Position numbers and translations under genes: made by a program. From NCBI GenBank assembly GCA_015484595.1, contig WFMM01000095.1:1-48795 (forward strand): a stretch of DNA of 48,795 bases, in the 5' to 3' direction. Position 1 is the stretch's first letter, and the number at the start of each line of letters is the position of its first letter. The DNA comes from Nitrospirota bacterium (lineage in GTDB: Bacteria > Nitrospirota > Thermodesulfovibrionia > Thermodesulfovibrionales > JdFR-85). This document shows, piece by piece, positions 1,617 through 47,921 of the stretch. The notes beneath the pieces were generated by a model, which was not told the DNA's origin, ran no database searches, and saw only the letters and a list, made by a program, of their open reading frames with translations.

Positions 1617-1623
1617 GTATTTA

Positions 1624-1629
1624 TTTATA
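1624..1629 (-). promoter_or_regulatory. -10 element predicting leaderless mRNA for the SPOR/TPR gene
   Basis: TATAAA on the minus strand is separated by 7 nt from the ATG at 1616, so transcription should begin at or next to the A of the start codon. No Shine-Dalgarno is present. Confidence 0.45.
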
Positions 1630-1671
1630 ATGCTTTAAAGGTGCTTCTGTAAAGACTTAGGTGGTTTAGGT

Positions 1672-1677
1672 TAAAAT
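1672..1677 (+). promoter_or_regulatory. -10 element predicting leaderless mRNA for the solute-binding protein
   Basis: TAAAAT within TTTAGGTTAAAATAT ends 7 nt before the ATG at 1685. The same 15-mer sits immediately upstream of the heptose kinase at 37441, again in place of a Shine-Dalgarno. Confidence 0.5.
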
Positions 1678-1684
1678 ATTCATC

Positions 1685-21073: not shown

Positions 21074-22693
21074 ATGAAGGGGTTACAGATTAAGTTTGTG
21101 TCTCTATTAGCCCTTTTCGTGATCTTCTTTTTTGGGAATTATCTGACAGTAAAAAGCTCAGCAGGCTCTGCAGGGGCTTACGAGGCTACAGTGGACATTG
21201 CATTTGGCTTTTTTGTCCTTTCTTTAGCCTTAGCCATGGTTGCCTATTACTATTTCAGGAGACACATACTTAAGAGGTTTTACTATATCCTTGATAAAGC
21301 CGATAAACTGGCTCGCTATGACCTTAGCTCAGAGGTGATATGCACTGGCAGAGATGAACTTTCCTCTCTATGCTCTGCAACAGGAAGGCTCTCAGAGTCG
21401 TGGCAGAAGATATTGAGAGAGCTCTTAAGTATTTCTGCATCTCTTTCAGATAGCACGGCAAATGTATGGTCTGAGATGAATAACAACATAAAGGGTGTGA
21501 ATATTCAGAACAATCAGGCTCAGCAGATAGCCAGTGCAGCAGAGGAGATGAGTAAGACCTCCGTGGATATTGCACAGAACGCCTCAAACGCTGTAAAGAT
21601 GACCACTGCCGTCACCAGGGTAGCCAATGAATCCATGACCGACATGGACAGCACCATGGATGTTATGAACGAGCTTGCCCTTTCAAGCGGAGAGCTTGGT
21701 GAAATGATGGAGAAACTCAATAGCTCCATCACCAGGATAAGCAGTGTGGTTAGTATAATAAATGACATTGCTGACCAGACCAATCTTCTTGCACTGAATG
21801 CAGCCATTGAGGCTGCAAGGGCAGGAGAGCACGGAAAGGGCTTTGCGGTGGTTGCCGATGAGGTAAGAAAACTCGCTGAAAAGACCGTAAAGGCCACAGA
21901 CGAGATAGCTCAAACTATTAAATCCATACAGGAGGAGTCCCTTAAAACCAAAGAGCAGGTTGAGCATTCCATCAGCAAGGTGGGAAGATCAATCGAACTT
22001 ATCAACAAAACCAAGGCTGCCCTTAACAGGATAGTTGACCATGCAAGGCTTTCTGAGGATGAGGTCACAAAGATTGCTGCAGCAACTGAGCAACAGTCAG
22101 CCACTACTGAGGAGATAAGCCAGACACTTGAGGCCTCTGTAAGTGCTTCGAGAGAACTTTTTGAAAACCTGAAGTCAACCATCAGTGAGGCAAACAGGAT
22201 GTCAGAAAGGCTGATATACCTTTCTGGAGTAATCGACAGGTTTAAACTCCCCGAGGATATGCATATTGAACTTGACAGGGCAAAGGCGGCACACAAAAAC
22301 TGGGTAATCAGACTTTACAGGATGTACTACAGTGGTGAGCACATAGACCCTTCGGAGCTTACAGACCACACTGCCTGTGCCTTTGGTAAGTGGTATTACG
22401 GCTCCGGGGCTGAGGTCCTGGGTGACCTTAAGCAATTCAGAGAGATAGAGTCACCTCACAGAGAGATACACGCACTGGCAAGGGCAGCAGTTGAGGCATT
22501 TCAGCAAGGTGACAGACAGAGGTGTCTTGAGCTGATAGAGCAGGTTGACAGGACAAGTAAGACCATAGTAGAGCACATAGATGCCCTTAAAGGCATAGGA
22601 AAAGGGGAGGGGGTATCAGAGCAGTCATCCCCTGAGAGACAACGCCTTGCCGAATCCCCTTCGTTTTCATATTTTTTAGCAGATAAATTATAA
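21074..22693 (+). CDS. Methyl-accepting chemotaxis protein with C-terminal CZB zinc domain
   Basis: 539-residue chemoreceptor. Two hydrophobic segments (about 5-25 and 42-62) are separated by only about 17 periplasmic residues, so there is almost no external ligand domain. A HAMP-like linker is followed by the long signalling hairpin with the invariant tip ([19 protein letters not shown]). The last 110 residues form a CZB domain: His in AHKNWVIRL, Cys in [11 protein letters not shown] and His pair in SPHREIH are the zinc ligands. CZB receptors sense zinc availability or oxidants such as hypochlorite in the cytoplasm. It has its own sigma-28 promoter and strong AGGAGG site; the sigma-54 activator follows after 8 nt. 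Confidence 0.93.
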
Positions 22694-22694
22694 T
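22689..22694 (+). promoter_or_regulatory. -10 element predicting leaderless mRNA for the sigma-54 activator
   Basis: TATAAT ends 7 nt before the ATG at 22702, inside the tail of the chemoreceptor gene. There is no Shine-Dalgarno before that ATG. A TTTTCA at 22664 is a possible weak -35. Confidence 0.45.
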
Positions 22695-37408: not shown

Positions 37409-37428
37409 CTCTGACAAAACATTTAGGT

Positions 37429-37434
37429 TAAAAT
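37429..37434 (+). promoter_or_regulatory. -10 element predicting leaderless mRNA for the heptose kinase
   Basis: TAAAAT in TTTAGGTTAAAATAT ends 6 nt before the ATG at 37441. The 15-mer is identical to that before the gene at 1685. No Shine-Dalgarno is present. Confidence 0.5.
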
Positions 37435-37440
37435 ATAAAG

Positions 37441-42239: not shown

Positions 42240-42245
42240 AGTATA
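42240..42245 (-). promoter_or_regulatory. -10 element predicting leaderless mRNA for MOSC-mog-dsbD
   Basis: TATACT on the minus strand, 7 nt before the ATG at 42232. The 42233-42340 gap also contains the divergent promoter region of the receiver-kinase gene. Confidence 0.45.
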
Positions 42246-47908: not shown

Positions 47909-47914
47909 ATTATA
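47909..47914 (-). promoter_or_regulatory. Extended -10 element predicting leaderless mRNA for divIC/ftsB
   Basis: TGCTATAAT on the minus strand (extended -10 TGN plus consensus TATAAT), 6 nt before the ATG at 47902. No Shine-Dalgarno. Confidence 0.55.
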
Positions 47915-47921
47915 GCATATT

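Follow-up and report, generated by a model that had tools for sequence, protein, structure and literature searches.

Do the two genes that diverge from a 68-bp gap at positions 1617-1684 begin with promoters set directly against their start codons, and do such starts form a class of their own in this genome? The window, meaning the whole 48,795-nucleotide stretch of DNA that was analysed, is contig C95 of a 2.11-Mb assembly (170 contigs, 96% complete). The nearest named relatives of its solute-binding protein (SBP) are from Nitrospirota MAGs, several of which carry the label Thermodesulfovibrionales or Thermodesulfovibrionia. A sequence-only reading had singled out six starts in the window, with an A/T hexamer 6-7 nt before the ATG and no ribosome-binding site, as a separate class of leaderless genes. 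The patterns described below suggest that a minority of genes very probably carry a sigma-70-type promoter against the start codon and produce a leaderless mRNA that would be read by recognition of its 5'-terminal AUG.

Six start-proximal hexamers in the window

All six hexamers are present, upstream of the starts at 1616, 1685, 22702, 37441, 42232 and 47902. The features are as follows.

1617-1684, no strand: divergent gap, two putative leaderless promoters placed back to back; 68 bp, 28% GC, both -10 boxes
1624-1629, minus strand: -10 TATAAA, 7 nt before ATG 1616; gene 816-1616, SPOR/TPR protein
1648-1653, no strand: shared candidate -35, TTTACA on the minus and TGTAAA on the plus strand
1672-1677, plus strand: -10 TAAAAT, 7 nt before ATG 1685; family 5 solute-binding protein (SBP_bac_5)
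22689-22694, plus strand: -10 TATAAT, 7 nt before ATG 22702; sigma-54 activator
37429-37434, plus strand: -10 TAAAAT, 6 nt before ATG 37441; PfkB kinase
42240-42245, minus strand: -10 TATACT, 7 nt before ATG 42232; MOSC protein
47909-47917, minus strand: extended -10 TGCTATAAT, 6 nt before ATG 47902; DivIC/FtsB

None of the six starts has a GGAG/GAGG-type site, and AGGAGG-type sites do precede many other genes of the window, both as the earlier reading had noted. The hexamer sits where a Shine-Dalgarno site would lie, so the motif itself partly accounts for the lack of one at these starts. Since the motif entails this absence, it was not counted as proof for the candidates. The picture is mixed for the further claim that all six are, or could be, first genes of transcripts: 1616, 1685, 37441 and 42232 face a divergent gene. 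The 22702 gene begins 8 nt after a same-strand MCP gene (21074-22693) whose stop codon overlaps the hexamer, and the 47902 gene begins 19 nt after a same-strand cyclophilin gene. The PfkB gene is ambiguous in another way: no -35 lies 15-19 bp from its TAAAAT, and an alternative pairing read from the sequence, CTGACA-N17-TATAAA, ends 1 nt before its ATG.

Position and promoter context across the genome

Hexamers were counted by their distance (gap) to the start codon in a 1.07-Mb sample, about half of the genome with the window included, in which 921 usable genes were called. Gene starts were the output of a simple ab initio caller that used a hexamer coding score and no upstream signal. Gaps 5-8 were compared with other distances, for a looser motif (TANNNT) and a tighter one (TAWHHT, ATG starts only). 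Within the window alone, the tighter motif occurs at gaps 5-8 in 5 of the 51 called genes, compared with 2-6 at other distances. This count is at chance, and the window by itself cannot show a class.

The hexamer excess that the earlier reading had expected genome-wide was found in the sample, at gaps 5-8 relative to control distances. Among divergent first genes, TANNNT stands at gap 6 in 27 of 174 and at other positions mostly in 5-9, and TAWHHT peaks sharply at the same gap (23 against a background of 4.7 per position). With ATG starts, TAWHHT at gaps 5-8 was found 46 times where 18.9 were expected (P 1e-7), and the form with TGn in front (TGNTANNNT) 23 times where 4.0 were expected (P 6e-11). 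The excess is weaker in genes with a same-strand neighbour and an upstream spacer (37 vs 17.8), and for operon-internal genes the plain motif at gaps 5-8 was not significantly raised (15 vs 10.5). The significant excess is thus limited to genes able to be first in a transcript, with 22702 and 47902 as positional exceptions. The identical pipeline gave no peak in 245 genes of E. coli K-12. In an order-level relative (G027), divergent genes carried the motif 21 times against 10.1 expected.

Elements beyond the -10 box follow the same gaps. The extended TGn -10 was present in 33 of 96 candidates, compared with 4/66, 4/50 and 10/56 at control gaps, and a -35 with at least 4 matches in 29% of candidates compared with 14-20% at controls. 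Some candidates have a near-consensus promoter right against the ATG; one is TTGACA-N17-TATAAT-TAATTT-ATG, at a gene in L155 whose product reads from its sequence as an HU-like protein.

Chance is an improbable explanation of this pattern. It would hold that A/T-rich intergenic DNA yields TANNNT freely, that the real promoters lie further upstream and that Shine-Dalgarno sites are missing for other reasons. The window count agrees with it, as does the expectation that about 55 of the 94 matching non-operon genes match by chance. The sharp position peak, the TGn enrichment and the recurrence in orthologues described below argue against it, as do the operon genes, which lack a significant peak, and the negative result in E. 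coli. At the level of single genes, the high background of AT-rich intergenic DNA means that any one match could easily be chance, and individual members such as 37441 or 1616 may be of this kind. The separate leaderless-type class is supported genome-wide, by spacing, restriction to first genes, extended -10 boxes and orthologues, and does not emerge from the window alone. The excess amounts to some 39 of 921 genes, or about 4%; in divergent first genes it reaches about 15%. The statement that the lineage uses leaderless mRNAs routinely was therefore too strong.

Orthologues, leader length and known systems

Among the usable orthologues of the six genes, a -10-like hexamer lies at gaps 5-8 in 57 of 133, compared with 14-22 of 133 at control gaps, and a Shine-Dalgarno-like site was found in just 11 of the 133. 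SBP orthologues have the hexamer at gaps 5-8 in 22 of 52 (3-11 at control gaps). TATAAT-N5 to N7-ATG occurs in several species, and TATAAT-N6-ATG in L006, L024, L036 and L050. Pooled Nitrospirota loci (NitroPool) were kept out as independent evidence; they had been fetched as SBP orthologues. MOSC orthologues have the motif at gaps 5-8 in 11 of 24 (0-5 at control gaps), with TATACT-N7-ATG kept in L285, L287 and L292. In about a dozen same-family orthologues of DivIC, TATAAT, mostly as TGNTATAAT, lies 7-11 nt before the aligned ATG, and orthologues of the sigma-54 activator in L233, L236 and L239 have TATAAT at gap 5-6. The hexamer of the SPOR/TPR gene (1616) was not repeated in its six usable orthologues. 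Support for the six is therefore unequal: 47902, 42232 and 1685 are well supported, 22702 moderately, and 37441 and 1616 weakly.

In L325, L326 and L327, order-level relatives, TATAAT upstream of divIC lies within the last codons of an apparent enolase gene. We take this gene to be enolase by eye, from its FYNL motif and Tyr-Asn codons. Promoter and enolase coding sequence may coincide at these loci.

Exact strings were also counted over 148 whole genomes, as secondary evidence only, because in AT-rich genomes the background from coding DNA is large. The source genome has a modest surplus of TATAAT-N6/7-ATG over TATAAT-N16/17-ATG (79 vs 61). The excess is clear in G031 (40 vs 12), G158 (72 vs 17) and G112 (54 vs 17), and there is none in some relatives, e.g. 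G018 (171 vs 214).

Misplaced start codons, with the true starts elsewhere and preceded by Shine-Dalgarno sites, would also produce starts of this appearance. For the SPOR/TPR gene the caller's preferred start was 1598, and relatives differ in the N-termini of their SBP and sigma-54 proteins. Such errors are nonetheless very improbable, given that five of the six genes have an in-frame stop 9-30 nt upstream, that MOSC, DivIC and PfkB orthologues mostly align from residue 1, and that Shine-Dalgarno-like sites are scarce across the orthologues.

The favoured mechanism, a promoter against the start codon, can be laid out as follows. The promoters would be of the sigma-70 type, in many cases with an extended TGn -10, and the gap from their -10 box to the start codon would be 5-8 nt, modally 6. 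In E. coli-type promoters, transcription begins (+1) about 7 nt downstream of the -10. With a modal gap of 6, the +1 is therefore expected on the A of the ATG, and transcription would start at, or a few nt from, this base. The resulting mRNA would have neither leader nor Shine-Dalgarno site and would presumably be translated by recognition of its 5'-terminal AUG, and the remaining genes would use Shine-Dalgarno sites or neither signal. The hexamers, their spacing, their dependence on gene context, their recurrence in orthologues and their enrichment in short gaps can be read directly from the DNA.

A short leader of 1-6 nt, transcribed from these same promoters, is a rather unlikely variant. 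Some orthologues keep the -10 with the ATG 9-11 nt away, as for divIC in L313, L314, L316 and L319, which speaks for it, whereas the genome-wide mode of exactly 6 would put the +1 on the A. The base before the ATG is a pyrimidine in 18 of the 24 strongest gap-6 cases and in 200 of 337 other ATG starts, which also points away from a short leader by a small difference. It was dropped as a test because the difference is too weak.

Direct binding of 70S ribosomes at the 5'-terminal AUG is the main way in which leaderless mRNAs are read, and the roles of IF2 and IF3 in their translation are context-dependent (PMC9031893). A search of the whole assembly (G000) found no SSU rRNA, despite its completeness rating of 96%, so the 16S anti-Shine-Dalgarno sequence of this genome is unreadable. 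Thermodesulfovibrionia are listed with the ACCUCCUUU anti-Shine-Dalgarno type (PMC10783764), which agrees with the use of Shine-Dalgarno sites by the remaining genes.

The feature is real and of an already known kind; the lineage is the new part. Zheng et al. (2011) described TA-led genes, in which a TANNNT/TAtaaT Pribnow box precedes the start codon by about 10-12 bp, and interpreted this signal as leaderless in 207 of the 953 bacterial genomes (PMC3160421). Nitrospirae are not among their named positive groups, although the 'Other Bacteria' row (8 of 20 genomes positive) could contain them (PMC3160421). In Deinococcus-Thermus, a different phylum, a -10 adjoining the ORF is likewise a leaderless promoter (PMC12340547). 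There it was reporter-tested and concerns about 30% of ORFs, whereas here it is predicted, with an excess of about 4%; the main text of that study makes no mention of Nitrospir-. Leaderless mRNAs also occur alongside leadered ones in Mycobacterium tuberculosis, where the starts were mapped experimentally (PMC3898074), whereas here they are predicted from sequence. Searches of open-access papers gave no report of leaderless genes in Nitrospirae, Nitrospirota or Thermodesulfovibrio, which is weak evidence of absence. The present reading would thus add to the groups with leaderless gene expression a lineage with no earlier report among the papers searched, and it would supply a rule for correcting gene starts in the poorly annotated genomes of this lineage.

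Short divergent gaps

Leaderless-type starts cluster in divergent gaps that are short (about 60-150 bp), with two promoters back to back as a possible layout. They make up 25 of the 46 starts in divergent gaps of 60-149 bp, compared with 16 of the 116 in gaps longer than that (P 4e-7). Short and longer divergent gaps do not differ in this way at control distances of 21-24 or 29-32; at 13-16 the short gaps are also higher, more weakly (10/46 vs 7/116, P 0.008). Both sides are leaderless-type in 7 of 18 divergent pairs 50-100 bp apart. The earlier proposal that the 68-bp gap holds two back-to-back leaderless promoters fits this short-gap enrichment in its layout, and the two promoters are putative. 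The pair was not scored as two-sided by the gene caller; TATAAA is outside the tighter motif.

On the minus strand of the gap, TTTACA at 1648-1653 matches TTGACA in 5 of 6 positions, with a spacer of 18 to the -10. It is the best -35 of the six, yet it belongs to the SPOR/TPR gene, which is without orthologue support. On the plus strand the same six bases, TGTAAA, match in 3 of 6 positions and lie 18 bp from the plus -10. Both -10 boxes could be served by the same bases.

Divergent gaps of 65-88 bp that have leaderless-type starts on both sides, with the layout seen at 1617-1684, occur in L150 (12389-12453), L125 (18391-18455), L202 (5362-5449) and L129 (4629-4698). Tentatively, compact bidirectional leaderless promoters, in divergent gaps of about 60-100 bp with the two promoters abutting or sharing a -35 zone, might be a standard design in Thermodesulfovibrionales; we hold this to be possible, short of an even chance. 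If true, two genes would be fired from a minimal common stretch, and both mRNAs would start at the AUG with no untranslated leaders. Short divergent gaps would also be natural test pieces for leaderless translation.

The 15-mer TTTAGGTTAAAATAT is common to 1665-1679, in this gap, and 37422-37436, at the start-proximal -10 boxes of the distant genes 1685 and 37441. It is perhaps a shared promoter element or regulator site.
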